Below are positions 6,696 through 60,000 of a DNA stretch of 64,000 bases, one piece after another. How positions within the stretch are numbered: position 1 is the first letter of the stretch; each line of letters begins with the position of its first letter. The translations under genes and the position numbers were made by a program. A model generated the notes under the pieces. It did no database searches, had not been told where the DNA came from, and saw only the letters and a list, made by a program, of their open reading frames with translations. The stretch comes from Halichondria panicea (lineage: Eukaryota; Porifera; Demospongiae; Suberitida; Halichondriidae): assembly GCF_963675165.1 (NCBI RefSeq), contig NC_087389.1, forward strand, positions 6,468,621 through 6,532,620, read 5' to 3'.

Positions 6696-9600
6696 ATGGA
6701 AAAGAAAAAGAAAGGTATAATAATAATATTATGCTAGGAATAATTATTATTGTACACTTTTAGATCAAGTCAACTGTTTCTGCGTCCAGTACGTACGTAC
6801 GTACAGTACATATATGTTGACCTTTGACCCCCCACACACAGATGAGGAGGACTATGGTGACTATGTAACGAGGTGTATATGTGAGCTGGAGCATGACGAT
6901 GGCTACATGATAGCGTGTGATGAGTGCGGTGTGTGGCAGCATATAGAGTGCATGCAGGTTGACCCCAAGCACCTCCCTGACAACTACCTCTGTGAGCGAT
7001 GTGAGCCGAGGTGAGCAAGCCGTAACCATGGTTATACAGTGACCTTTTAACCTTTCAAACTGTATTCATTTTTCGACCTTGAAGACTATTAGGTGTTTAG
7101 TCAAAATTGGCAAATATTTTTTCTTCTAAATATGAACTTTGATGGTACCATCACTTCTAAGCTTTCAGAAAATTTGGCCGAAATTAGTTTATCGAACTTT
7201 GATGGTACTATCTCCTTTCAAGCTTTCGAAAAATCGTTAAAATTATAATTCAAGTTATGTCTATCACTGCACTATAACCCTAACCCCTCAGGAGTATTGA
7301 TCGGCGCAGGGCTCGACAGATACAGCTCAAGAAACGTGGTGCTCTCTCTGAGATGGAGAACTCAAGAAGGAGGCGTGACATTGAGGGACGATCCTCCTCC
7401 AGCTCTTTGTTGTCTCCAATACCACTCAGCAGCAGAAAAAAACGAAAGAAGGGAAAAGTATGTCCACCCACTGGGACTAAATACTGTCATCCAATGGATG
7501 GTAGCATCTTTGAACGCTCATAACTTCACTTAAAATGGTCCAATTTCAATGAATTAGTGATTTCTGAAAGCTTAAGAGGAGCTCTTTAAGCATGGGCTAG
7601 GTTACATGAAGGTTGGGGGAAATGTGCAAAATTGAGTCCGATCAAAATGTTAAGCATGTAAGCGCTTAGAAAATCATAAAACGATTGAGATTGGACAACA
7701 GAACTAATGTTATTAATAGCTGATGACATTGATTGTGCTTGTATGCACAGATCCCTGAGCCTGTCAAGATGGACTCATTGAAGCGCACACGTAAGGACAC
7801 GCCCTCCACTCCCGCTACCACCAAGAAGCCAAAGAAGCGTATCGGCAGTAAGCCTCAGCCACGGTCTCGTCTCAACAGCTCTACTGGTAGTATACAAAGC
7901 CTCCTCAATGCTGCTACACTGTTGGAGCAGGGTGATGGGAGAGAGGGAAAACCATCGGGACTCTGGAACACCAACTATAGGTGGGAGCTGGTACAACCAC
8001 TGTATAGCTGGTATATTTAAATGTTTGCAGTTTTAGCATGTATCGCGAACATTTATACCCACGGATTTTTAATATCACATGCATGCTGCAGGGCTGCTAT
8101 TCGGCGAAAATTATATCCTCGAATTTTATTAAACTGTGTACATTTGTTCCCAGAGTGTTCCAAGTGATGACTATTTTTAATCCACACACACATTTACCTC
8201 TTTATAGCCTATTATAGTAAACTTGAAGGCCTAAACTGTTTGTTGACCAGTGTGGGCACTTCCCTGCTAGTGTACCAATATTAAATATTAACTGCCAGTG
8301 TACTTGCAGCCCATGGAGTGATGAGTATGAGACCCTGGCTGAGAACACAGTGAGTGATAGTCTGGGGAGACTGCTGTCTAGTGGAGACCAACTCTCTCAG
8401 CTCAAGTCAGAGGCTGTTGTCTACAGCAGCGTACAGTATCAGGAAGGTATGCTCTCTGTCAGTGTGTGCTAGTAGCGTACAGTATATCGGGTTTTGAATG
8501 CGACGTTCTTTCGATTGCAAATTGCGAGTTTGTTCATAAATCGCAATCGAAAGACACACAATAGAAACGCAATCAATGCTTTGTGTGTGTGTGTGTGTGA
8601 GTGTGTGTGTGTGTGTGTGTGACGTGTGTGTGTAGTGTGTAGGAGTGTGGACGCTGAGTCAGCATTTTCCCTGGTGGAGGTGGCCAGACGGAGGAAAGGT
8701 GTCGTTGCTGACGTCAGCATTCCTGAGGACGAGTTGGTCACAGAGTACAAGGTACACAGTCAGTATATACAGGGATAGCTAAGTTACTTTCAGAGCCTGT
8801 AATTTGTGTTCATATTGTCCAATTTCAAAACTAATTGATGCATTCAATAGCTCTCAGAATTACCTTTCCAATGGTGTGCTTAGATACAAGTTCTGTGATT
8901 GTTCAAAATAAATAGCCTTCAAATTCTGGTGGTGATGTTCGTATTTGTTTGATTATCTGACAGGGGTTAGTGACACTCAAGGCAGATGTGCTGTCAGAGC
9001 TGTCAGTCAAGTCCTTGTGGAGGGAAAGTCCCTGTCCTTTTGTATACCAGTACGACAAGATGGCTGACCTTGAGGTGGTACTAGATGCTCGGGAGGGAGG
9101 CAGCATTGCTCGTTTTATACGCCGATCTTGTTCCCCTAACACAGAGGTAAGGTATCCCTCTCACTCTATTAGTCTCTCCCCCACACTCTAAAGGTATACC
9201 CTCACCCATTAGTCCCCCCACACACCGTAAACGTTCCTGTAATGCTCTCACTATGTTAGTCTCCCCTCCACACTCTAAAGGTTCGGCACTTCTTTGTTGA
9301 GGACAGCCTCCACTTTGGTGTGTACGCCCTCGGTGACCTTTCACCCCAGGAGGAGATCACGCTAGCCTTCGACTTCCAACACGACAAATGGTACACAAGT
9401 GCGAGTCTCCACACGTACACTCATCTGTTTTGTTCTTTATCTCCTCCAGTGATTACCCTATAGAGTGTGCATGTGGACAGGTCAAGAGCGCTTGTCTGAT
9501 CGCCACGACAACACCGTTAAAAGGAGTGGGCGTACCCAAGTCATGTGACATAGAGGAACCAAGGTTCGTTACGATAATATCATCATGTGATCAGTATATA

Positions 9601-15957: not shown

Positions 15958-17860
15958 CTATCCTGTTACGTCAGCTCTGTGGTCTAGTCTGTGAGTCTTC
16001 CAGTGTTTCACTTGGCACTCTTTGCTGCAATAATAGCAAGGATTGGGGCAACCACGACACCTGTGTGTGGGTGTGTGGTGTGGGTGTGGGTGTGGGGAGG
16101 GAGGGAGGGTTAACACAAGGCTACATGTATATACCGTATTACTAGAATGTTTTGTGAGAATCAAACATTTGCGAATTTTGATCAATTCGCAACAATAAAA
16201 TCCGCAAACCTAAATTATTACTAGTAAATACACACGATCCTTGCCAAAACACAATAGTTAGATCGCAAAGGGTCAAATTTTCTGCTGATTTGGCTCATTT
16301 GCAAAGGTTTTTCACCCGCAAAATATTCTAGTAATACGGTAGATGCTTTCTTAAATTACGACAATCACATAAACTTGTATCTAAGCACACTATTGGAAAG
16401 GTAATTCTGAATTAGTTTTGAAATTGAACACAAATTACAGGCTCTCAAAGATAGCTATCCGATACTTTATCATAGTCGTAACTCACTTGACACATCTCTT
16501 GTAGCTCTTGGCCACGGTCTCCTCCACTCCACAATAGTGGCACATGTGTAACCTCTTACGCCCACCCCCCTCTATATCACCTTTGACCTCTAGTAGCGGA
16601 GACACATCTGTAGATATGATTGTGTCGTTCTTTGCTATCTCTGCACCACCACCCTTGTCAATGTTCAGTGTATCTGTGTGTGACGTAGCATCAGGAGGGA
16701 TCACATGATCCAACACTTCTAATTTCTTAGTAGTCACATGACCAATGTCATTATCCTGTACTAATAGTCTGTGCAATATATCGTCATGACGACGATTGAT
16801 CGAGTCTAACATTTTCTGATCCACTGATTCAGAATGTGTTTGTGTGACTGGTGAGTCTTTATTAGCATCTTTTAGCGGCTTTTCTTCCGCTTTTCTCTTT
16901 ATTGCCTCCAGTAGTTCCTTTTTAGTCTTTATTGCCTCCAGTAGTTCTTTTTTAGTCATTATTACCTCCACTGGTTCCGTTTTAGTCTTTATTGCCTCCA
17001 CTGGTTCCTTTTTAGTCTTTATTGCCTCCACCGGTTCTTTGTTAGTCTTTATTGCCTCCACTAGTTTAGGAATTTGGTATGGAGTAGAATCATTAGTCGA
17101 CAGTTTATTAACAGCTTCCTTGTAAGTGGGTGGGGTCTCTGTGTGAGTGGGTGTGGTCTCTTTGTGAATAGGTGTGGTCTCTGTATGAATGGGCGTTATT
17201 TCCACTAGTTCAGTTTTGCTTCCAGACGGAGATTTAGTTTTCTTCTTCTTCTTCCTTTTCTTTCCTCCGTCATCGTAATGGCCAATAATTTTATCATGAG
17301 CCAGTTTGCTCAAAGCTTTGTCATCTACAGCAGCAAAGACAGTGACTGTATTACACACAGAGAGTGGTGGATATTGAACAATCACAGAACTTGTATCTAA
17401 GCACATCATTGGAAAGGTAATTCTGATTGCATCAATTAGTTTTGAAATTGGACAATCTGAACACAAATTAATTACGAGCTCTCAAAGATAGCTACCAAAA
17501 TGGCGGAAATTTGCCTTAGAAATTGCTAAGCACACTCAAGGCACATGTGTTTGCACTAGCTACACTGTACTGTAACAGATTAAACTCATGGCAATAATCA
17601 ACTTCATCAGATACTGTTACCTGATATCCCTGATTGTTGGGGTTCCCCCATCATCTTCTTGACCTCCTTCTCCCCCCACCTGCGCTCGGCCACGCCCCCT
17701 CGAGGCTCCACCCTCCTACGCAAGATGACAGAGAGATAGTCTGCCTGACCTTGATCATCGTCTGAGTCTATCTCATCAGCTTCTAGCCATCGTCGTAACA
17801 TCATGACCACTGACCCGGCGAACTTTATATATACTTGCAGACCACATAATAGCTACGGAT

Positions 17861-18904: not shown

Positions 18905-19226
18905 CTTTCTCTTTATTTGTAGATAACCTAACCAGTTGCAGTATATGATCAGTAGGAAGCAAGGTACAATCTCATCATTGACATGACATGATGGAGAAGA
19001 AGCTTAGCATTATGAATTTACGTACTAGTTCGGTTAATTGGAACCAGATAGTCTCAATATTTAACCGCGGCCTCCTTAGGGACTTTAATTGAGACAGCAC
19101 TGCGCATGCGCTAAGTATCAAAGGGGAGGACCTGCTAACCCCTCCCTCTCCTTTGACTTTCTTGTTTACTTCATACTTATCACTTAGCGCTACAGGTATT
19201 AAACTGCTAGCATCAAAGGGAGTGCA
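18905..19226. promoter_or_regulatory. Putative bidirectional promoter between MYND and 2A-GTPase genes
   Basis: Only 322 bp separate the two divergent start codons (18904 on -, 19227 on +), so both 5' UTRs and promoters must lie here or upstream. The interval includes a GC-richer segment with an ACTGCGCATGCGC-type palindrome at about 19098, resembling an NRF1-type site. No clear TATA box was seen. Regulation is inferred. Confidence 0.5.
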
Positions 19227-22200
19227 ATGGATTCAGACTCACCAAACAGTAGTTTTGACAGATCTACTGTGACTGCTATTAAAAGGTCAAGAAACAGAGT
19301 CAAGAACATCCACTGGAACTCACTGCTTCATGAACCTTGGTGCTGTGTTCCTATCAGAAGGTATTAGAACCACATGCATAAATGATGTAGTTGTGCATAC
19401 ACAATCATGCATTTCTAGTTTATCTTAAGTATACGCTGTGATAGAGTTACAGTATTGCTTTCCCTGGTATTAGGATTGGACCTGAACCCACCACTGACCG
19501 CTTCATGGCCATCATGCACGGGCCTAATGAGCAAGCCACTCCTGGAAATGCTTTAGCTGTCGACCCAACACGACAGTTTGGTGCCTTTCAGTCGTTTGGA
19601 AACGCTTTCTTGAGCCGATTTGAGGCTTCATTTTTGCCTGCATGGTCCAGTCCAACGCTCATTGAAACTCCGGGAATATTATCTGGAGAGAAGCAACGCT
19701 TACATCGTGGGTACTTTAAATTTTTAGTTTTTAAGGGTCAAGAAAAGACGACCAAGTTCCAAGTGAGAGTTCAGAGCACTAATCGACTGATGTTGTCCCC
19801 CATTCTCAGTCTGTGTATACTGATACTGATATTCCGCTTACTGTTACAGTCAGGAGACGTTGAAGCAAACCCTGGACCAACACTTGGTAAGCAGTGTCTC
19901 CTTATACATGTATGCAATTGCTCATCAGCTATTCATAGAACATGCACACGTAACCATGTGTGTGCCATTATCATTTGCTTGTAATTTGTAGCCGAAATTC
20001 TGACTCTCGATGATTTGAAGTTTGTTTACAATAACTTGATAAAAGCCGCTGGAAACTGGTACAACCTGGGACTTAATCTGGGATTAGGCTATGAAACTCT
20101 CCAGAATATCAGAGATAAGCCTCAAGACAATCAAGCCAGTCTACGTGACATGATAGCTGCTTGCTTTAAGACTGGCCGTCTCACCTATTCTAAAATATGT
20201 GAGAGTCTCAGAGCACCATCAGTTGATCGGAATGATGTCGCTGCGACTATAGAGGGGACATGTACAGGTACCGTGATTATATGATATAAGGCTACTTCAA
20301 CCACATGCTATAAGATTAGTTATGAGTAGTCAACATGCAGTACTTAAGGTTACAGTATAGTGTTCCTACCCACGCATCAAACGCTCTATGAATATCATTA
20401 TTTTTTACTACAGTGGAGAATCACAAAGTGAGTCTCAGTCGGTAAATTTTAGCCTCGGTAGGCCAGGAAATATTGAATTGAAGCTTCTATCTATTTATAC
20501 GAAAATGAATGGGCAGGGCGACACGAAGAGAAATGTTGAATACAGTCAAGTGAGTTGCAGCTAGCCGTCAGTTTGTAGAGAGATCGAGCGGTACTTACCG
20601 TCTAGTTTTAGCTTTAGCCCTTCCGTATGAAGTTTTACAAGCTGTATCTCTTCGTGTCGCCCTCTGGAAGGTATTTATTTATATCAACAAGTCTTGAATG
20701 AGAGCTGCAAGTTCGTGCATCTTCATAATCATTCTTAAACAAAATAATAGCTGATCTTCATACAGATATATACAGTAGACTTCTTTTGTCCTGGAAGGAG
20801 AGAAAAAACTCACCCAAAAAACCCATGAACACTCATGATCAATCACTATACCGTAACCTTAAAATAACACATCCTGATTAGGAATGTAACATACATGTAC
20901 CAAGAGCAGAGACTGTTGAACTGCTAGTAACAGCAATTGCCTGCTCCTGCGTCATTACTTGATAGTAATCAGTACTAATTTGTTATGTTAGCAACACTTC
21001 CCAGAAACCGCACATGCTGTGATTGCGCAGTTCATACAAACCACAGACCACAGTTTACTTAACAGCACTCATTAATTAAATAGTGACGACAGTGATGACG
21101 CATGTCAAGGCAAATGCGGTTCCACGATTACTACAGCAGTTCAACACTCTTACTCTTATCTACTCTTGCATGTACTTAAATAGGTTAGTATTAGATGGAC
21201 GTGGGCCTATGGGCCTACTCGAGCTGGCTGATTTCACTTCGTTCAAATGATTGTCATCCACTGTTGCAGGCTGTGTGAGTTTTTTATTAGCATAGCAGAC
21301 TGAGAGAGTAGCTAATCAGCTAACCTTCAATCGAACTTCCTTTAATCTATGCACTTCTGTTCGTTGTGACATCATTCTGGAGACAACTCGATTGGCCTAA
21401 CATACTACCCACTCCCAAATACATTGCGAGTTGCAGTATAGTTGTTAATTAATGTATAATTATAATTATACATGTATAGAGTCCATGCATGCAGGCACAT
21501 CTTCACAAATAGTCTCATGAATCAGTCGCCCTTCTTTTGGGAAAACCGTCTGAGCACTCTTGTCTTGAGGTCAAAACCAATGGAATGTAATTAAATTCAT
21601 CACCTGTGTCAAATGCGTTGAGTAACGTGCAGTTTTTTGCCGGCTGCCTCCAAGTTCATCACCTGACTGCAATCCAGATTAGGAATTCTGTCTTGGTAAA
21701 TAAAACTGGAAAAGAGTGCTCAGGAAGGGCGGCTGATTCATAACTCGCAGGACTAGATGTTGACCCCTGTTCTAGTTGGCTATAGTAATGATCATAACAG
21801 TATTAACAAACCTCAGCCTCGGGCTACATTGGTAGATAGCTAGGGGCGGATCTAGTCGAGCACCGCCGCCCTCCTTGAAGGAGGTCGGGAATCAAGCCTA
21901 TCCACAGTTTTGTTCTGGCCTGTTACCAATAGTATCATGAATATCATTCATTCTATGTGGGTGCTAACCAATAGTGATGATTTTATTAAAGTGGGTGTTG
22001 GCCTCGCCTCTCAGTCAATCCAACGTGTGCAAAATTCACACGTGGTACAGTTGAGTGGGTGTGATCAATCCCCTTGAGATACTGCAATCTGATTGGAGCT
22101 GGTGGAATTGTTGGAATTCCAACAACAGAACAAAACTGTGGATAGGGCCCGACCTCCTTCCGGGCAGCGGTAGAGGGCGGCGGCGCCCAACTAGGGCGGA

Positions 22201-25200
22201 TCCAGGATTTGGCATGTTGGCTTTAGGGGGGTTCTTATAGTACTTCTTGTCCGCACAAAGCGCGGGCAAGAAGTTCACCTGGTACGCAGCGCCAACAATT
22301 TTGAAAACCACGCCACCATTAACATACCACGCCCATTAATTAACCACGTTCTCCCATTGATTTATAAACACAGGAGATATGGTTTTGTGACTAGAGGAGA
22401 GATAGTGGTGGCCCCCAGTGGAAAGACAGACAGTGGTGGCTGGTGAAGGAGACTTGGCTGTAGACTTGTAGAACTTGATAATCAATTTATTAATGATTAT
22501 ACATGTAAATATGCAGTGTCATTCAATATGCAGTGCCATGCACTCTCCCTTACCTGAAACTTTCCTCTTCTCTTAAACCAGAAGTCAAGGATTCATGGCT
22601 ATAGATATAATAATATTATCACTTGACCACCCTGCAAATCAATGTGGCTGTAATGCAGCCAGTAGCCAGCCCCACCCTCTTGCTATGTAGAGAGAACCAG
22701 CCCCACCCTTTTATTATGCAGAGAGAACTTTCTAGACTTTGTCACGACAGTACAGTTAGCTAGCTAGCTAGTATAAATACTAGCTGGAAGGGTAGTTTGT
22801 ACGAACCCAACGAAGTACCTCTGGATCCGCCCCTGATAGCCATTAACATAGGAAGAGTATACCTTAAGGTGACATATTTTCGCGTGTATTAATTTCTGCT
22901 ATTTCTGCGAATGAGAGTAAATCGCAAAAATTAGTACTCGCAAATAATTGGCCGCCCCCTTGTTTAATGTATCCAGATCGACATTTCGCAAAAAATTATA
23001 CCGCAAAATGTACAAAACTGTAAAAACGCAAACAAATCTACCTGTGAAAATATGTCACCTTAAGGTATACGCAAATCCAATACTGTACACGGGACGCATT
23101 CTGTCTGACCTATGTCACAAATACTTACTGTATTGTAACCAAAACCACGCCAGGTACAAGGCGCCAACAATAACAACGCTGATAATAGAAAAAGCTATCA
23201 GTGATACAGTATAGACTCTCGTTAATCCGGTCACCCTTGGGACCATGCAGCTTGGCCAGAGTAGCGAGGTGGCTGTATTTCAGAAAACAGATACCGGCTA
23301 ACGCAGGATAACAACGTGTATGCTCAGTAAAACAACGACGTCACAACCAACGGAAGTGGATTGAAGGAAGTAGATAGAAGGTGTTCGATTGAAGGTTTCT
23401 AAGAAAGAGCTTATAGCTACCCTTAGCCTGCTATGCTGACAAAAGACCCACAGCCTGCAACAGTGTGGATGACAATCGTCTAAACGGAGTGAAAGCTGAC
23501 AAGATTATTAGATGTAGTATTAGATGGCCATGCCCATCTAATACTACCTTTGGTGAAAGTCTGCTATACTACTGCTGCTGACTCTATCAGAAAGAAAATA
23601 GCTGTACATAGCTGCACAACAAAACTACAGCTCTGTCTCTAGCTAGCTAGCTAGCTCTGTGTATGACGTTCAATACTTTGTCAGGATATTTTCGTGATAA
23701 ATTCAGTATTATAGGACATTTTACGGGAACAAATATCCAATAATGTTGCGCATACGCAAGCAGTCAGTAGCAGGCCTTCTCTTCAGGGGAGGCCAGTGAA
23801 GGAGGCTAAGTTATACCATGAGTTCATTAGGAAGAGCGGTACGCATATCCAATAGACTGTATATACACGTGATGCATTCTGTCTGACCATAGATAGTAGA
23901 GGAAGGGGATTGGAAACTAGATCACGTGAACACAATTTCATGGGACTGTCCGTGTTAGACGGAAGCATTAGCAGAATGGCCGGAAGTAGACAGGAAGTAT
24001 ATAGATCTGTGTTGCGTATGGTTGCAGCCTCCTCTGTGGGCCCGGCCTCCTGCTAGTGAAGACATATCAAGGAAGTAGGACTCTGAGCTATGTGTGTATG
24101 CAAGCTTTTAGTTTTGAAATTCTTTTTTTTGTAGGTTCTTTCTACTCTGGAAATGTGTCCATGCTCTACAATTATACAATATAAAATATCCATGACAACT
24201 CATCATCTATATAACATTATTATGAACTGCAGACAAGCCATGACATTGTAAAGATACACGTACATTATGAACGATATGAGTCAGAATGTGTTATCAGAGT
24301 CCGGTCTTCTGCGTTTGGGTAACGGTTTGTGAAAAATTTTTTTACAGAACTTACCTGATCAACTATAATATATAGTGTAGAAGAGTGATGCTTTCACAAA
24401 TCTAATTAAACATTTAAGGCCAGGATTTTCATCACAAAAGTTCAGGGAATCGATGGATCTCAATCAAAATAGCACAGCACGCTGGTGAAGGTAACTTAGG
24501 TTGAAAGAACTGGAGTGATGAGTTGAGAGAGGGGGTGTAAGGGTATATTCAGAACGTACTGACAAGTTCCAAATGAGCTGGCACTGAACACACGAGGTGA
24601 CGATGACATCAACTCTTGGCAGCTTGACAATGGTGAGCACGTTCTTGATGGCAATTAGTTCAACACTGACTTGGCAACCAAGAAGTGGAGAGATTCAAGA
24701 GTTGCTGGTCAACTCAGGTAAAGGCTGATGAGAACAGACGGGGGATGTCTGCTGCTTCTTGCTTTTCTTTCGCTGAAAAAAAACGCAATTTCTGACTTCC
24801 CATGCCCATTGTACAATCACACCTGTGTGGGAAAAAGAGCAACATGTCATTTTCACACTTTTTCATTGAGGCAAAATTCTTCTTTCGAGTTAGTACAGCT
24901 ACTATGTAATAGCTATTCTCATAGAGTAAAGCTAAAAGAATCAGAAAATTCACACTAAAACTCAATTGTGAACGGTTAGATCAGGACACCCCACACAAAG
25001 AAGGCACCCCATTCGACCTATTTCACAACACTGGAGAACAACAAAAAGCTTACATATCAAAAAAAGGGGCTATCCTGTTAAAGCTCAAGTCAAGGAAACA
25101 GCCAATGTGCTTACTAGCTTCTAAAAGCGTATCAGAAACTAGATTCTCCCCAAACAGTGCTAAAAACAGGTAAATGGTGAGTCATAGCTAACTTGTAGCT

Positions 25201-28200
25201 CAACAGGTATATCTTTTTACTTAAAACGCTCAAAATATTGTTAGTATAGATTACTACTGACATTAAAGCTCTTAGATAGTCGTTTCTTACCTTTAGAACC
25301 GAGTAAAACTCTGAAAAGTCTTTAGCCCACTCAAAATTAGTCAATTCGCGGTCTAACGCGGATAGACCTCAGCTCTCAATGTATGATCTATAGCGCACGT
25401 GATCTAGTTTCCAATCCCCTTCCTCTACTATCTATGGTCTGACCTATGTCACAAATACTCACTGTATTGTAACCGAAACCACTTCTAGTACAAGGCGCAA
25501 ACAATAACAACGCAGGAAAAGTCATGAAAACATCAGTGATAATCATCACTAGTGTTACTTTGCACATTTATGACTTCATGTTTATACAACAGCGTGTGGT
25601 TGTGAGGTAGTTGGACAACAGAATGCTGACTATGGAGTTGCGTACTCTTCCTAATGAACTCTATAGACTTGATAATACTGATTCTGTTATATAAGCCTTG
25701 TGTAATATCTGTTCTATAGACATGTCCACATCCTCAACGAGTCCTTCAATTGGCGACCATTCTTTCTCTCCTGTAAGTTTTGTTATGCACTGCCCTCATA
25801 GTGATATGATAGGCATGACGTTTGTATATTGTAGATTTAAATTATAGGTTCATTGTCATCTAAATACACAATGATAAGAGGCAGTGCAACTCATGCTACA
25901 TTTTTTGCTCAACAGGCTAGCAATCCAGAAACTTCGAATTCAATCGGTAGTGAAGTAATATTAAGACAAAAAAAAGCTGACTACCACCCAACAGTAGGAT
26001 CAGGGTTTCTAAGGGGACCTGATTTTCCTGTTGCACAGGTTGGGATCAGGAATACTAGCCAAGGTATATCTTGTACTGTATTAAAACATTTATTCGGCCT
26101 GGAATCGAGGCTAGTAAGAACATTACTGTCACTACACTATATACACATTCATTATATGCATGTGCAGGCGGCAATGAGGCAGTAAAAGAGAAAATCAAGA
26201 ATACCAACGAAGTAATTCAAAAGGTTATATCAATAGCTAAGAAGCTTAAATTGCCCACTCATCAATCAGAGCTCGAAAGAATCTCTTCAGCGTTACTATC
26301 TGGCAAAGTCCAAATAGGATTTGTTGGCTTAACTAATGCTGGCAAAAGCGCAACTGTTAGTTCCTTTATAGGCTCACCTTTTCTCCCATCAACGCTTCAA
26401 AGGCAGACGGTCGGCTCAATCCGTGTTGTACATGATCCAACATGTACGCATGGAGAACTTTTTGGCACAAGAGATGGCTTGACGGTTTCTCTTGCATCTG
26501 GTATTTATTCTGTTCACTCCCGTATTGAGGAATTGAATACCAATGACCGCATTAACGATATTCGCTACTCTGAACTCGTTCTTTATGCGCCAGTCACACT
26601 TTTTTCAGAGCTTGAAGAGAATTTTGCTCCAGAATTTCTAGATATGGGTGGCAGCTGTGAGAACATTCCTAGCCAGCAAGCAATTATTGCACAAAAAACA
26701 GCTTTAAAAAGCCTAGCAGCCATCGTGCTTGTTGTCAGTGCTGATGACGTATCTAAGACAACAGTGACTGACCTTGTTGAAAATCTAAAACAAGTACATC
26801 CTGGCCTAATGGAGAAACAAAGCAGAGTGCTAGTGCTCATTAACAAATATGATATGTGCTACGACGATGAGAATAAAGGATCATGGGGGCCTGACAGAAT
26901 TCAAAAGGAAATGGCAAATCACATTGGAGTGCCAATAGAGCAGACAGTGTGCTTCAGTGCCAAATATGCACTACTTGCACAAAAATGGCTACGAGATCCT
27001 TCTGCTGTAACCCAACGCAAATTTTTTGAAGAATATTTTTTTTTACAATCCACACCCGAAAAAGATTCCATTGCAATTTGCTCTTTGGAAAAGCCCACGC
27101 AAGAGAATGTGAAGAAACTAGCTGAAGGTCTTGAGAAATTTAGCCGGTTCCAAGAAGTTAAAACAAAGCTTCAGTGGGCACTCTGTGTTAATGGTCGTGA
27201 AGTTCTTTTGGATAGTGCTGTGGACAATGGTTGTGCGGAAGTGTCAAAGATGGAAGAAGCCATTAGTCATAGAATACAAGAAATTGACATTCGAGGGAAG
27301 GAAAATAAATTAGAGCAGCAAAAAGCTCAGACAGAAAAGGTTGAACAATTCTTTCAAAGTCAGACATTATTCCCAAAAACTCTTACCCAATTTTTTGAAA
27401 TTCAACTAAACGCACTTGTTGCAACATTAGAGAATGACATCAACATACAATCTTCTTTCAAAGTATCACATCTCAAAAAAAATTATGATAGCCAGCAGCA
27501 AGCATTGAAGCATGTACTGGATGCCCGCAAAGACATGCTTCAAGAAGGAAAAGAACAAATCTTCAAAGCTTGGAAGTACGGTATCTTACAAATGAAACAA
27601 ACCTTGTTGGCAAATCTGAAACAGTTACTACAACACTTAAAGGAAAAAGTTGCCTCAGAGAATATCACTGATATCTTCAACCTCAATGGTGTGGAACCGC
27701 TTAAATTGCTAGAAACCATTTCTGAATCGTTTGAATCTGTTGAGCAGCAACCAGACTTTTCACAGTGCACAGCTATAGGTGATGATGCTCTTAAAGCTGC
27801 TATTCAACCTTGCACGGAGACTAGGCAGAGAAGAAACGAGCAAAAGACAACAACGCAGCGGTTTTTGATATTCCCCACTGACCTCGGATACAATGAGGTG
27901 ATTAATTACCAGGTTACTGTGTTCGAAATAAACGCTGAGAACCTTCTTAGAGCACTTCACCAATTTGCTTCATTCTGTTCAGATCATGTTCGTAACTCTC
28001 TGTTGAAGGTTTTGAATGATGTAGCTAACAAGTTATCTCAAGCTCTTTGGGATGAACTGAAGCAGTTATCAGAAGAGCCGATTACATTGAAAGAGAAAGT
28101 TCTTCAAAAATCCAAAAAAGAAGTCGCAGAATTAGAAACTGAAAACAAATTGCTTGGAGAAGCGAAAAAAACACTATGTGAGCCACCGTCTCCTACCGGT

Positions 28201-28418
28201 AAAAAGAGGGAATTCGAAGAAGAGGATGATGATGTCATAACACCAGTTAAGAAGCTTAAGAAGCCTGGTGAGTGCGTAATAATTATTATAGGTATGTATG
28301 CACGAGACTGCATGCAACAACACCACATATATAATTATCATATTATCATGTCACTGTTGCTGTTGTTTCCTTAATAATAGCTCCTAAAAAAGCAAAGCGG
28401 TCCAAACGCCGACACTAA
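19227..28418 (+). CDS. Chimeric EHD fragment - 2A - death domain - dynamin-like GTPase
   Basis: Exons: 19227-19360, 19474-19886, 19992-20267, 25720-25772, 25916-26063, 26168-28267 and 28381-28418. Lengths and phases agree over 3,162 bases (1,053 aa). Residues ~45-125 resemble an EHD ATPase fragment (RIGPEPTTD, MHGP, FGNAFLSRF, ETPGILSGEKQR) without its P-loop. Residues ~168-180 are a 2A motif (GDVEANPGP); ribosome skipping there would release a 179-aa and an 874-aa product. Residues ~184-268 form a death domain. The large exon encodes a GTPase: P-loop GLTNAGKS (~395-402), DMGG as G3, NKYD as G4, then coiled coil and a basic C-terminal NLS (KKAKRSKRRH). The GTPase resembles nuclear SLIP-GC/NUGGC-like large GTPases, by motif only. 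The fourth exon is small and follows a 5.45-kb intron; if that junction is wrong this is two genes. Confidence 0.72.
19790..19879 (+). other. 2A ribosome-skipping motif with hydrophobic leader
   Basis: The reading frame contains an internal Met (19790) followed by a strongly hydrophobic stretch (LSLCILILIFRLLLQ) and then SGDVEANPGP, matching the D-V/I-E-x-N-P-G-P consensus exactly. Skipping would occur between Gly (19874-19876) and Pro (19877-19879). The hydrophobic part resembles a signal sequence. In sea urchins, 2A motifs at the N termini of NLR proteins have been shown to act as signal sequences when skipping fails. Use of the internal Met is inference. Confidence 0.88.
20515..20663. mobile_element. 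Miniature inverted-repeat element
   Basis: Perfect 17-bp ends (AGGGCGACACGAAGAGA and its complement) bound 149 bp in the long intron of the 2A-GTPase gene. No coding content. Confidence 0.7.
21518..21740. mobile_element. Miniature inverted-repeat element
   Basis: The ends are inverted copies (TGAATCAGTCGCCCTTC and GAAGGGCGGCTGATTCA, then AGAGTGCTCA). A partial related end (GGGCGGCTGATTCACGAG) lies at about 53200, so it is a family. Confidence 0.65.
21842..22834. mobile_element. Non-autonomous element with AGGGGCGGATC ends
   Basis: The 11-bp ends AGGGGCGGATC and GATCCGCCCCT are inverted; a similar GGGCGGATCC occurs internally at 22194. Inside, a 20-bp pair (CTATCCACAGTTTTGTTCTG at 21898, complement at 22126-22145) makes a further foldback. 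No coding sequence. Confidence 0.6.
22857..23070. mobile_element. TA-flanked miniature element
   Basis: The ends are inverted copies (TACCTTAAGGTGACATATTT and complement) over ~210 bp. The flanking host DNA (AGGAAGAG ... CGCA ... CCAATA) has an empty relative near 23826-23850, consistent with insertion at a TA. The content is AT-rich and non-coding. Confidence 0.7.
23071..25560. repeat. Duplicated intronic segment, interrupted in one copy
   Basis: The segment 23071-23215 (GCATTCTGTCTGACC, TATGTCACAAATACT, CTGTATTGTAACC, CAAGGCGC, AACAATAACAACGC) has a second copy split in two: 23845-23887 and 25437-25560. The second copy is broken by the element at 23888-25436. Confidence 0.75.
23888..25436. 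mobile_element. Non-autonomous DNA transposon with 7-bp target duplication
   Basis: Ends of about 42 bp are inverted copies (CATAGATAGTAGAGGAAGGG ... GATCACGTG). GTCTGAC flanks both sides (23881-23887 and 25437-25443), and the uninterrupted paralogous site at ~23103 has it once. Total 1,549 bp. A 7-8-bp duplication fits hAT-type elements. No transposase is seen inside, only short open frames. Confidence 0.85.
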
Positions 28419-32300: not shown

Positions 32301-35300
32301 TATAATAATAATTTAAGCATTGAGAAATGATACAACCTTGTCATTAGAGCTAGCTACTATAGACTCACTTGTTAGTCCTTGAGGGAGGGTAATGGTGATC
32401 ACTGCGGGGGGGCTCTCATCACCCCCCACCACTACACGAGTCAGGCTGAACATGTACATACTTCCCGGGAACAGCCCGGTTATCACCAGACTAGTGACAA
32501 CTCCACTCTCCACTCGTCCCAGTGTGTGGTCAGGATGTATGTATGTCACTATATAACCCGTTGCCCCCGGCGATGCTTCCCAGAATAGACTAACGGATGT
32601 GGAGTTAATTGATTGGCCGCTTAAACCTGTCGGAGGAGTGAGGGGAACTTGTACCATCACCATGGTAACAGCAGACCATACACCACGGCCAACAGATGTG
32701 TGTGCTGCTACACGGAGCTCATAGGTCGAAGTACGAAGGTCGGAGAGGGTGTGCTGAGTGACTTCCCCCACATTAATACTTAACCACATCCCTTCCGATT
32801 GAACTCTGTACTCTAGCGTATATGTAGTTAGAGGGCCTCCATATGCTGTACAAGGAGTGGGCGGCTGCACGGAAATAATTACATCAAAAATCCTTTTTTG
32901 GTGTTTATAATTATAACAGCTTACCCCCCAGGTTGCTGTGATTGTACCTTCACCTCTGTCGGCAGTAGCTCGTAGGTTAGTGGGCGGGGCCAGTGGAGCT
33001 GTGGGGGGTACATCACCATGGTAAAACACACAAACAAACGAACAACAACAACCCCTTTTACCAGACATCTTTATAGAGCGGTAATGATATTCATGCACTG
33101 TGTTCCATGCAGGGGACGTGAATACACACGCACTGCACACATTCAATACTTAGATCATGGACAAATGAGGTGTCGATGGACATGAGGTGTCGATGGACAT
33201 GAGGTGTCTGTGTCCAACGCACACTAAATCGAAACCCACTTGTCATTGGCTAACTAGAGCTAGCTAGCAATAATGACATCATTTGTATCCTCAGCAATCT
33301 ATATAGTTACCGGGACTATAGCTCACTAAGTGGGATCTAATAATTATAATGAAAGCCTAGATAGTCTATAGCTAGTCTACACACTGCATGTCAATTAGCT
33401 TTGCTTTTAATACAATGCAAGTGAAGTGAAAGGGTTGCACGTGCATGTACATGTGCATGTACATGTACATGTACATGTACATGTACATGTATGCACGACC
33501 ATGCAGTGTGTGTAGAGGTCTAGATCACCTGATGGTTGTGTGCGCACCATCCCCACACTGGAGGACACGCTCTGGTGCTCGTAGTTGAAGGCTATCACAC
33601 GAAACTGGTAATCATACGACGGCACTAGGCCTGTCACCATAGCAACAGTTGCCGTGGGATCAACGCCGGAAACAGCAACGCTCCAAATAAAGGAACCGGG
33701 GCAGAAAGAATTTCCACGATCGAGAATTTCGATAGAGTAGTTACGCAATGGTAGTCCTCCGTCAGAAGTGGGCGTGTCCCAAACAGCAGCGAAGGAAGTA
33801 GTTGTGAGGGTTGTGTGGAGGGGATTAAGTGGAGGGGAGGGGGGGGAGGGGGGACCTATGTGGGGGGTAATAATAAACACTGTGTGGGGGTATCACATGA
33901 TATAGTCTCACCCCCCACAGTGATGACGGATGATCCAACGGTGTACCGGATATCACCCACACCAGCGACACGCAACAGAGCCACACACGTGTACACTCCG
34001 TTATTACTCGACTGGAAGTTGGGGATAGACAGAGAACCTGTAATGATAGGAAGGGGTAGTGAGTGTCCATATCATGGTGGAGGGAGCGCTATCCATATCA
34101 TGGTGGCCATGGCTAGACTCTGGGCCCAAGATCAAGTAATCATATTTAAGCATGCCATTTTACAGAGCTATCCAAGAGCCACAAAATGTATGCTTTACTA
34201 TTGAAATCTGACAATTCAAACTAGAGTTACAGCCAATCAAAGTTAGCTATAGCTATATAGCAGTACCTGTGCTCGTTGGTTGTGTGAGAGGACTGTCCTC
34301 TAGTAACCACTGATAGGCCACTGAGTCCGCTGAGGTAGACACTATAGAGCACTCGAGTGGGACTTCTGTGCCTTGTGGAGGTGTGAGGCTGCCAGCAGGG
34401 GACTCTGTCACCATGGGAACACCTAGGGGGGTGGTGTAATAGTATTATTAGATAATCGATCAGAACGCAAATTAAAGGATCTCAAAGGTAGCTACCAAAA
34501 ACGCCTGAATTTTAAAGAAAAATGCAACGCTATAGCCTTAATTGTTTTTGTCGAAATTACTGAATTTCATGATTATACATACATTGAAGTATGGTAATGA
34601 GGAATGAGTTATAGTAGCTGTGAAAATGCCTCCTACAATATTCAGTGTCTCTTACCAATCACTGTGAGTTGCTTGGGCGGAGTGTCTAGCTGTCCCCCGA
34701 GGTTGGCTGCCCTGCATGAGAGGAGAGAGGTGTCCGCCACAACAGCAGAGGAGATAGTCAGTGAACCATCACCAGGGAGAGGGGACACACTGTACTGACC
34801 TGCAGCCACAAGGGAGGGCATAATGGTGTGCATGAGCATATACCTAGCTTGCTTCTGTGCAATTGTATGATGTAGTGCAGTATATTTGACTGCCCATAAC
34901 AGAATTGTCCAATTTCACAACTAAAATGTATTTAGTAGCTAGAGCTATACAAGATGATAATAAGCACATAAAGAGCTATAATTCCTACGTACTGTAAGAC
35001 CAGGAGTGGACTCACCAGTGATGGAGATGGGAGTGACGGATCCAAAACGATACCAGGAGAAGGTGGGTGGGGGAAATCCCTCCGCCTCACATGACAGTGT
35101 CACAGACGCCCCCTCAAACACCAACAGTGCCTCAGGCATCACTGTAAACACTGGACCAACACCTACACACACACAGTTGTGTATAGTGGGTAATTTTCTC
35201 GTTGATGTACATTTTAATATGAACTACCCAGTTAAAAATGTTATATTCTAAGTCGTAGAGCTCAGAATAGTGACCTAATACTTTTAGATTAATGTTCTGA

Positions 35301-57034: not shown

Positions 57035-60000
57035 GGGCGGGGGCACATAAGATACACACACACACACACACAGGGGGCGGGGGTACACACACACAGGGGG
57101 GGCCGGGGGGCACACACACACACAGGGGGGTACACTAGTTCACGTACATCGATAATCCTGTTGTCTGACCTCTGGGGGTCAGCAATGTCAATGGCCAGTA
57201 TATGATTGAGTGCCTCCACTATTTGCCTGTTGTGCAGAACCACTTGATTGGGGTAGTTGCCAACACACATCTCAATGAGTGTCTGGAGGATGAGGTGCAC
57301 AAGGTCCATGGTCTCAGCTGTGATGTCAGAGTAGAAGTGCTGGAGGAACAGAGCCACTTCCCCGACCACATTAATGGTCACTATATTATCCTTCTGTTCT
57401 CTGAGATAGTTCTGCATGAGACGATATTGTCCATCGCACATAAGCCCCAGGACTTTCAAGGCTAGCTTCACGTGATGTGTGTCTCTGAATACTAACAGAT
57501 CAACAGTGTCCTGGTCAACAGGGCCCTATGTACGGAGGTTATATAGTGACAGTTACTATGGTTACTAATGATGTCATACCTGTGTGGCCTGTATTGTCCC
57601 ATCCTTAAGAGTGGACAGAGCCTATAAATATAATAATATTACTTATACGTGGGCGGGACTGTACCTTGAGCTCAAACACTTCACTGACTGCTTTTGAGGA
57701 GCTCCGAGCACGTTTGGGGGCGTGGTCTTCATGTTTGGGGGTGTGGTCTGCAGTTCTGACTATCAAGGGTTCGTCGGGTTCATCTGGTAAGAAGGGGGTG
57801 GGACGGGCGAGGGGCTAGGGGAGGGTCAAGCAGTAATATCACATGTAAGTTAGTTATTATTATACCTTGAATGCCACTATGGAGTCGAACGCATCATCGT
57901 CCATCTCTATGGTAACGGCAGTCGTCAGCTTGCGTGGGCGGAGGCCCTGATAAGTGGGCGTGACAGCGGACGAGATCAATAGAGAACTAGCGTCAGTTTG
58001 CAGGAACTGGTTTTCCATAATCCGATTATCCATTTGGGTCACTAAAGCCCTCCGCTCATTGAAGGTGATGGCAGCGTTTTGTAGCAAGCTCTGGATGGTT
58101 GAGAACAACCTCTCCTCTCGTGTGTCCAACAGGTGCTTCATACCCTTCTGTACATGAGGGTTGCCTGAGAAGAAGATTGTCTTGAGGAAGGCGAGTACTT
58201 CACGGACAATGGCGTCATTCGGATGGGATAGCATGGGAACAACACGCGACACAGCGTTGTCCATGTTCTGTATAGCATTCTGTAAGGGGTGAACTCTGAC
58301 CCCACACCTCTTGTGGTAATCAGGGGGAGAATCTTCCATTAGCTGAGAGTCTATATGAACCACTTCGTTGTGTATGATGGCTCTCATGATCTGGAGACAC
58401 TTGATGTCCAGTTGGTCCTGTCTCTCTCGTTCCTTCTCACTCAGACTGCCTAGCCCGTTGAAGGAGATCTCTAGTTGCCGTAGCAACCGCTCTACGCTGG
58501 GAGATACCTCACCATTGGATCTAGTCAAGAAATAACAAGTTCAAATATATAAGCACTATACACAAGTCAAGTCAATACAAGCACAGGGGCTTTAAATTGC
58601 CTATTTTCGTGGAAAACTAAAAATGTCCATTATTAATAACTGTTTGATTATTATGCCACACTTATCAGTAAAACAATAATTGTATGTAAACTACATGAAG
58701 TGGGTGTGGCAAGTGGTTGCCTAGGTTTAGGGTTAGGGTGGGTGTGGCTTATGGGTGCCTAGAGTGGGTGTGGCTTACCCGACGAACAGAGCAACGTGTG
58801 CTTGGAAGGATGGTCCGAGGGGTAACCACTCGTCACCTGGCAACTGGTGCTCTTTGTCGAGGTAATCGCTATATGGACCCTCGTACTTTGACCCCACTTG
58901 AACCCTAGCGTCATTTTGACCTTCATACGAGAGCTGATAGTTGCTCACAAAGCTATTGAACGATTTGTTTAGTTCCAACTCGACTGCGTATATGTCCTTA
59001 TAAGTACTCATAGCTGGTGTTTCAAACGCCTTGCAAGGCTTCGTGCGGAGGTCAAAGGTCGCAATGGCGGCCTCAGAGGGTGTAATTGGTAGGAGGCCAT
59101 TAGTACGAGCCAATATCGTGAGCACAGTGCGACGGTAGAGTTTCATGTGAGCATCTGTTGATATGTGGAGGGTGATGGGGTCACATAAGGTCTGTGGAGG
59201 TCAAGGGATCAAAGGTTAAAGGTCATAACAAGGTGACACCCTCACCAGTAGAGCTGTGAGGACCTTGCTAGTCACAACCAGTTGCCGGGGACGATTGTGC
59301 GGCTCAAAGAAGTCGTTGTAGAAACACTTGACAAGAGGTAGCATTCCGTCAGTCAAGTACAAGAGCACGTCTAACAGGGGTCATAGTACACTAGGGTCAA
59401 GGGTCAACCCACCTCCTCTTACCTGGTAGTAACCTCCCATCTTCACCAGTGACATTAGCAAGGTTGCGTAACTCTGTGCGTGCATGACGTGTGCCTTTAG
59501 GGCTCTTCCCAGCAGAGTAACGTCGTGAGGAAGAGCTCATACTCTGGCGCACGAGGGCCACTTCTGATGCTGGCAGTGTTTTCAAGGCCACTCCAATATT
59601 GTTGAGCATGTCCCCAACAGTATCCAAGTAACCCCAAAACTCTCTGCAAGAATGAACCAAAGGAGGAGCTAATGTAACAGCCTATAATACATTGAGGCAA
59701 ATACTTGTATCTCTCAAATGTGAACTTTGATGATACCATTTGAAAGGTATATCTTTCTAAGCTTTCAGAAAATCAGAAAATCGTTGCTATTGGGTTCACG
59801 GGATTCAAGTTAAAGCATGCAGTTGAAAGAGTCCCCGAACCATTGATTAAAGGTACATGTACAGAGGCTTCACTTACTCTGAGTGTGTGAGCAGAGCAGC
59901 ACCACTCGAATGCTTGTCCCCTCCAGTGCTCATGTACACAGACACTAGGAATCGTGCAAATGGTCTCTTCCTTTCATTAGTGAGGTCTTGAGAGTTGAGG

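Follow-up and report, generated by a model that had tools for sequence, protein, structure and literature searches.

Of 241 NLRs of sea urchins, 85 have a 2A-like sequence at the N-terminus or close to it (PMC4981915); in 14 NLRs, a 2A of 26 aa stands at the N-terminus, and some 2As are placed within the N-terminal region rather than at its extreme end. The one Strongylocentrotus purpuratus NLR 2A that was tested skips at about 80% in vitro and acts both as a skipping element and as a signal sequence: the downstream protein stays cytosolic when skipping occurs and takes the exocytic route when it does not (Roulston, 2016; PMC4981915). In cellular coding sequences, 2A motifs have been described as very rare (PMC12846837). 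From sponges, 20 bona fide NLRs plus another 181 genes with NACHT are recorded in the transcriptome of Halichondria panicea (PMC8242945), and 25 Death-NLRs in Dysidea avara (PMC12909245); the term '2A-like' is absent from both papers.

A gene that resembles the sea-urchin NLRs in part of its layout was found in H. panicea, in a stretch of 64,000 nucleotides (the window; C13:6468621-6532620) of the 131-Mb, 39-contig assembly in which the genome searches were made. Like the S. purpuratus NLRs, the predicted protein shows, in its N-terminal region, D(V/I)ExNPGP at the end of a hydrophobic stretch, and the sea-urchin-type succession of 2A and death domain is present (PMC4981915). It differs in the position of the 2A, since the core ends only at residue 180, behind a fragment of an EHD gene, rather than forming a 26-aa N-terminus, and in what follows the death domain, a dynamin-type GTPase instead of NACHT-LRR; Pfam scans found neither NACHT nor LRR in the window protein. 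Relatives on contig C14 differ from the sea-urchin proteins in their longer upstream membrane modules and resemble them in continuing to NACHT; the dual targeting described for sea urchins offers the natural model (PMC4981915). The in-frame model joins seven exons into 1,053 codons, as the earlier note had claimed, followed by one terminal stop, and the domain order proposed there also holds: EHD fragment, 2A, death domain, and dynamin-type GTPase, with a hydrophobic stretch that ends in the canonical 2A (Table 1). All introns are GT-AG, intron 5 with a length of only 104 nt; an in-frame stop at 19200 lies 27 nt upstream of the start ATG, and two alternative donors of exon 3 likewise keep the frame. 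The basic tail encoded by the last exon resembles a nuclear localisation signal and is regarded as a putative one.

Table 1. Features of the seven-exon gene of Halichondria panicea; positions are counted from the first nucleotide of the window.
Feature	Position	Strand	Remarks
Exon 1	19227..19360	+	N-terminal 44 aa; ATG common to C14 copies A and B
Exon 2	19474..19886	+	EHD fragment, linker, hydrophobic stretch and 2A, all in one exon
EHD fragment (IGPEPTT..HRGY)	19475..19714	+	From switch I to just beyond the G3 motif
Hydrophobic stretch, 19 residues	19787..19843	+	Mean Kyte-Doolittle 2.52; a little before the 2A core
2A/StopGo core DVEANPGP	19856..19879	+	Predicted break G179/P180
Exon 3, death domain	19992..20267	+	By fold and profile similarity
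Intron 3, 5,452 nt	20268..25719	+	Several inverted repeats, DNA-transposon-like
Exon 4, short linker	25720..25772	+	In-frame ATG at 25722, possible start of the GTPase part alone
Exon 5, linker	25916..26063	+	End GPDFPVAQVGI common to paralogue P0005
Exon 6, dynamin-type GTPase and helical region	26168..28267	+	G1/G3/G4 motifs
G1 GLTNAGKS	26326-26349	+	Exon 6
G3 DMGG	26641-26652	+	Exon 6
G4 NKYD	26842-26853	+	Exon 6
Exon 7, basic tail APKKAKRSKRRH	28381..28418	+	Last exon

The 2A core occupies residues 173-180 and matches D(V/I)ExNPGP; the residues directly before it (RLLLQSG) agree with the L-rich, (A/S/C)G-ending upstream context formulated for viral motifs 2 and 6 (PMC12846837). Skipping at this site would yield products of 179 and 874 aa, the lengths given in the earlier note; the equal amounts that it expected are not assured, as shown by the incomplete skipping of about 80% in the tested sea-urchin NLR 2A (PMC4981915). 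Since the window 2A is made up like that of sea urchins (hydrophobic, L-rich, SGDVEANPGP), most chains would be expected to split and a minority to remain membrane-bound. A hydrophobic stretch precedes the 2A in the window protein and in all eight RefSeq proteins measured; the seven C14 RefSeq genes examined have three such stretches each, P0005 and the window protein one.

We favor, as the probable if by no means certain explanation, a two-product gene that belongs to a family combining a hydrophobic stretch and 2A with a death domain, in which one message supplies a leader and a Death-GTPase effector, and the EHD fragment is carried along. In this scheme, a single spliced message would be translated across all seven exons; the ribosome would mostly skip one peptide bond at NPG/P, release the 179-aa leader (EHD fragment and hydrophobic stretch), and continue into the 874-aa product of death domain and dynamin-like GTPase with its basic tail. 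Where skipping fails, the hydrophobic stretch would still be attached and could tether the Death-GTPase to the secretory membrane or direct it into this compartment. GTP-dependent oligomerisation of the effector might then cluster its death domains and enable FADD- or PIDD-like contacts as part of a response in innate immunity or cell death. In this view, the EHD fragment would be mainly a passenger, in the place that a two-transmembrane module occupies in the relatives.

The EHD-derived residues correspond to residues 71-151 of EHD4 (E 5.5e-24) and to intact EHD genes of the C14 cluster. Compared with the EHD1-4 ATPases, the piece starts after the P-loop and ends after G3; it lacks EHD_N, P-loop, G4, helical and EH domains, and is not a functional EHD. 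The EHD_N label of the earlier note was not recovered in Pfam scans of the window protein, and its suggestion of a membrane-remodelling fragment finds no support: such activity is unlikely for a piece that has no P-loop, no G4 and no EH domain, and relatives carry the two-transmembrane module at this position. The breakpoints can be read against an intact EHD gene within the C14 cluster (C14:1222838 to 1221309, minus strand). The segment 19326-19402 of the window, which runs from the last part of exon 1 into intron 1, aligns with sequence 104-180 nt upstream of the start codon of this gene (87% identity, E 1.4e-19), and the first 99 nt of exon 1 have no match in the region 5' of it; the matched segment may once have been a 5' exon of the EHD gene. 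The coding sequence for the EHD N-terminus and P-loop is missing from the window copy, the acceptor of exon 2 is a cryptic AG inside former EHD codons, and EHD and 2A sequence meet at ..HRGY without an intron; beyond this point, the window copy continues with the sequence found in the 2A exon of NLR-type relatives.

This layout is common to C14 copies A-D; copy E has kept EHD residues 1-70, including EHD_N sequence, and passes into the 2A exon at the P-loop. Judged by query coordinates, shorter EHD remnants occur at C14:1225835, 1013728, and 1453388, one of them with stops. The copies and remnants show that the fragment was not always trimmed alike, yet all five full-length copies have an intact frame leading into 2A, and all four indels in them are multiples of three. 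A second kind of EHD/GTPase recombinant was noted on the same contig: the EHD open frame L028 (G000:C14:1282309-1283694, minus strand), with EHD_N and Dynamin_N by Pfam, has, in place of its C-terminus, a tail resembling the one in the GTPase genes (GKKRTHEETSSGECR).

The exon 3 domain has the death fold and death-domain profile similarity, with about 20% identity to the adaptors FADD and PIDD; Pfam PF00531 reaches 12.4 bits in the window protein, under the cut-off of 22.6, and across the family 8 of 18 members have a PF00531 match at an E of 1 or lower (6.9e-5 for the best one). For the GTPase, likeness to the dynamin superfamily consists of the Dynamin_N match (E 1.4e-5, 25.6 bits at a cut-off of 27; 30.5 bits in the paralogue P0005), the G1, G3, and G4 motifs, and the succession of GTPase and long helical region; a death domain and a basic tail are additions relative to that superfamily. 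The predicted structure shows this same succession in a dynamin fold, and the best structural matches of the GTPase are mitofusin 1, bacterial dynamin-like proteins, and dynamin-1. Counting against the preferred explanation, the model of the GTPase has only moderate confidence (pLDDT 67), and the 35 Foldseek matches at E up to 0.001 have low TM-scores (0.16-0.29 of the query) and about 9-14% identity. The single GTPase sequence had no sequence match in the PDB at E up to 1, and the best sequence match of the GTPase profile was GIMAP5 (E 0.009), over 36 positions only; GBP is not among the 50 matches listed for the GTPase, an absence that does not exclude GBP.

The pairing of 2A and death domain extends far beyond the window. 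The EHD-2A exon used as query has 55 matches in the genome, 45 on C14 and 44 of these at 0.50-1.63 Mb; five of the 55 (the window and C14 copies A-D) cover the whole query, four cover EHD only, and the rest mainly cover the 2A end. With a degenerate 2A pattern, 116 sites were found genome-wide. Because 150 of 540 candidates for the death-domain query were scored, counts of Death matches are lower bounds: at least 50 of the 100 listed 2A sites are followed within 1.5 kb on the same strand by a Death match, 46 of them at a distance of 84-185 nt, and the controls among the same 100 sites (same strand, the 1.5 kb upstream of each site; opposite strand) gave zero in both cases. On C14 lie 32 of these 2A-Death sites, and 18, the window included, are spread over ten other contigs. 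The arrangement that the earlier note called unusual is thus unusual in its EHD part, and the 2A before the death domain is a recurrent front end in the H. panicea genome. Chance occurrence of the 2A motif was rejected, as the reversed-pattern control returned no site against 116.

Seven RefSeq genes on C14 were examined (P0011, P0013, P0014, P0016, P0017, P0018, P0020; isoforms P0012 and P0015 were excluded), and in all of them a two-transmembrane module is followed by 2A, death domain, and a variable domain. The last is NACHT, above the Pfam cut-off, in four (P0013, P0016, P0017, P0020), whose C-terminal repeats look LRR-like with no Pfam LRR above cut-off; below the cut-off, it is a Roc-like P-loop domain in two (P0011, P0018) and a ZU5-like region in one (P0014). 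P0011, P0013, and P0014 have a second Death-like region at the C-terminus. The leader was also read in ten small stretches away from C14: it starts with MGI.VELW.A.(I/V)G at two places on C5 and on C10, C11, and C3; other hydrophobic leaders occur on C1 and C4 (the latter partly masked upstream), the two-transmembrane module on C7 and C16, and just a short stretch before 2A on C2. In our reading of this single C2 locus, the 2A appears to lead into an open frame resembling the extra helical domain of P0005, not a death domain, with no Pfam support. Used as a query, the MGI leader matched at 34 places, at 19 of them over its full length; 17 of these 19 are stop-free.

By association with the NACHT-bearing relatives, an immune or cell-death role of the window gene is a reasonable suggestion. 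More tentatively, and at present short of an even chance in our judgment, the sponge 2A-Death unit could be a chassis for innate-immune genes, with a swappable leader on one side, a sensor or GTPase on the other, and a skipping efficiency that sets the ratio of tethered to free receptor; the leader would be an EHD fragment or one of two modules (two-transmembrane Cys, MGIxVELWRARIG), and the downstream part NACHT, Roc-like, ZU5-like/Death, or dynamin-like. Dozens of sponge 2A-Death genes with both halves variable would turn the sea-urchin observation into a broader animal device; they provide many natural constructs for probing the part that upstream product and unskipped fraction play in innate immunity. 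The EHD fusion also reveals, base by base, how a piece of an unrelated gene came to encode the predicted first product of a message for two proteins. The leader-2A-Death region of P0017, searched by shared 5-residue words among proteins of about 746-2,373 aa, retrieved 11 proteins, all from H. panicea and none from other sponges. Among the papers listed by the literature searches, none on 2A in sponge Death or NLR genes was found; prior mention is possible in Odon 2013 and in Rao 2025 (Cell Rep 44:115822), which reportedly surveyed 2As of viruses and cells by HMM.

The two halves of the window gene could instead form separate transcripts, with the GTPase starting at the ATG of exon 4 and exons 1-3 left over as a 2A-Death front end; we regard this as unlikely, while giving it more weight than the other alternatives. 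The repeat-rich intron of 5.45 kb between the halves and the in-frame position of that ATG would suit such a split, no RefSeq protein for the window copy was found in the length ranges searched, and the C14 paralogue P0004 (LOC135347355) consists of helical domain and GTPase, with no 2A and no death domain; all four findings also count against the preferred explanation. Yet the frame is unbroken at every exon junction, and RefSeq LOC135347354 isoform X2 (P0005; 1,123 aa), which is C14 copy A, unites the parts in the same order as the window copy (exon 1, EHD fragment, 2A, death domain, linker, GTPase), including the GPDFPVAQVGI linker of exon 5, and differs by an additional helical domain, absent from the window copy, ahead of the GTPase. 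In copies A and B, order and strand of the parts are those of the window. P0010 (34% identity) likewise has helical domain and GTPase without 2A-Death; together with P0004, it suggests a GTPase gene that existed before it acquired the 2A-Death front.

A second and less probable alternative concerns the start of translation, which might lie at the methionine before the hydrophobic stretch (MLSPILS..) and produce a sea-urchin-like signal-2A, with the EHD part as 5' untranslated sequence. The methionine is present in the window and in all five C14 EHD copies (A-E), and the 14 sea-urchin NLRs with a 26-aa N-terminal 2A would be precedents (PMC4981915); on the other hand, several relatives lack it (STNRPPTLSLY), the exon 1 ATG is common to copies A, B, and the window, and the EHD fragment has maintained an open frame with in-frame indels in five of five full-length copies. 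Substitution patterns are consistent with a translated leader under loose constraint: for derived changes pooled over the EHD fragments since their split from intact EHD genes, omega is 0.47-0.54 (P 0.015-0.039), against 0.07 for the pair of intact EHD genes. Taken singly, the window copy has an omega of 0.39-0.45 (P 0.05-0.08), an indication of weak purifying selection that detracts from the preferred explanation, and gene conversion from the intact EHD genes could also keep the copies alike. That the released EHD fragment is itself functional, as a dominant-negative EHD partner or membrane-binding peptide that couples EHD membrane traffic to the Death-GTPase, is very doubtful: the 87-89% protein identity that it shares with both intact EHD genes on the C14 stretch and some purifying selection among the copies are outweighed by the missing P-loop, G4, helical, and EH parts, by the unrelated upstream modules of other family members, and by copies that are remnants only, one with stops.

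In a tree-based count over 19 copies, the Death exon has an omega of 0.83-1.06, indicating little constraint. The GTPase evolves fast, with an omega of 0.69 and 0.71 for the window copy against copies A and B and 1.10 between A and B; both results count against the preferred explanation. In pairwise comparisons, dN/dS of the Death exon is often above 1, but in the tree-based counts only the six EHD-fusion copies reach such values, with an omega of 1.41-1.77 and P from 0.064 to 0.004 depending on kappa; diversifying selection on the death domain is possible and is kept as a hint. The 2A segment (19754-19879 and its counterparts in C14 copies A-E) has near-zero synonymous divergence, with 0-1 synonymous change in about 31 sites, next to a dS of 0.09-0.31 in the adjoining EHD part of the same exon among fusion copies, which points to gene conversion or constraint on the nucleotide sequence.

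The surroundings of the gene include open frames with Pfam matches to a PHD finger (6727-7014, plus strand), a MYND finger (15958-16209, minus strand), and fibronectin type III domains (32313-33149, minus strand), which place it among ordinary genes, away from the C14 cluster; the open frame at 57860-58540 (minus strand) had no Pfam match. Intron 3 contains 48-nt inverted repeats at 23881-23928 and 25396-25443, 98% complementary and about 1.56 kb from end to end, and further inverted repeats that were read as DNA-transposon-like insertions. Inside the C14 cluster, at L018 (G000:C14:1182483-1183583 and 1188174-1189391, plus strand), open frames carry the P-loop GTPase motif TGKTGSGKSTL and by eye are unlike the dynamin-like GTPases. 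P0123 (LOC135348600; 1,923 aa), one of the proteins retrieved with P0017, ends in a death domain of the same type and lacks a 2A; its precomputed Pfam accessions are presumably those of Ig and COR domains. Finally, a separate family of 106-aa leaders ending in 2A (MGITVELWRARIGLFSGGRG..), to which the 34 matches with 19 at full length refer, occurs at G000:C5:2.73-3.09 Mb, C10:6.45-6.86 Mb, C6:4772517, and C13:4030740.
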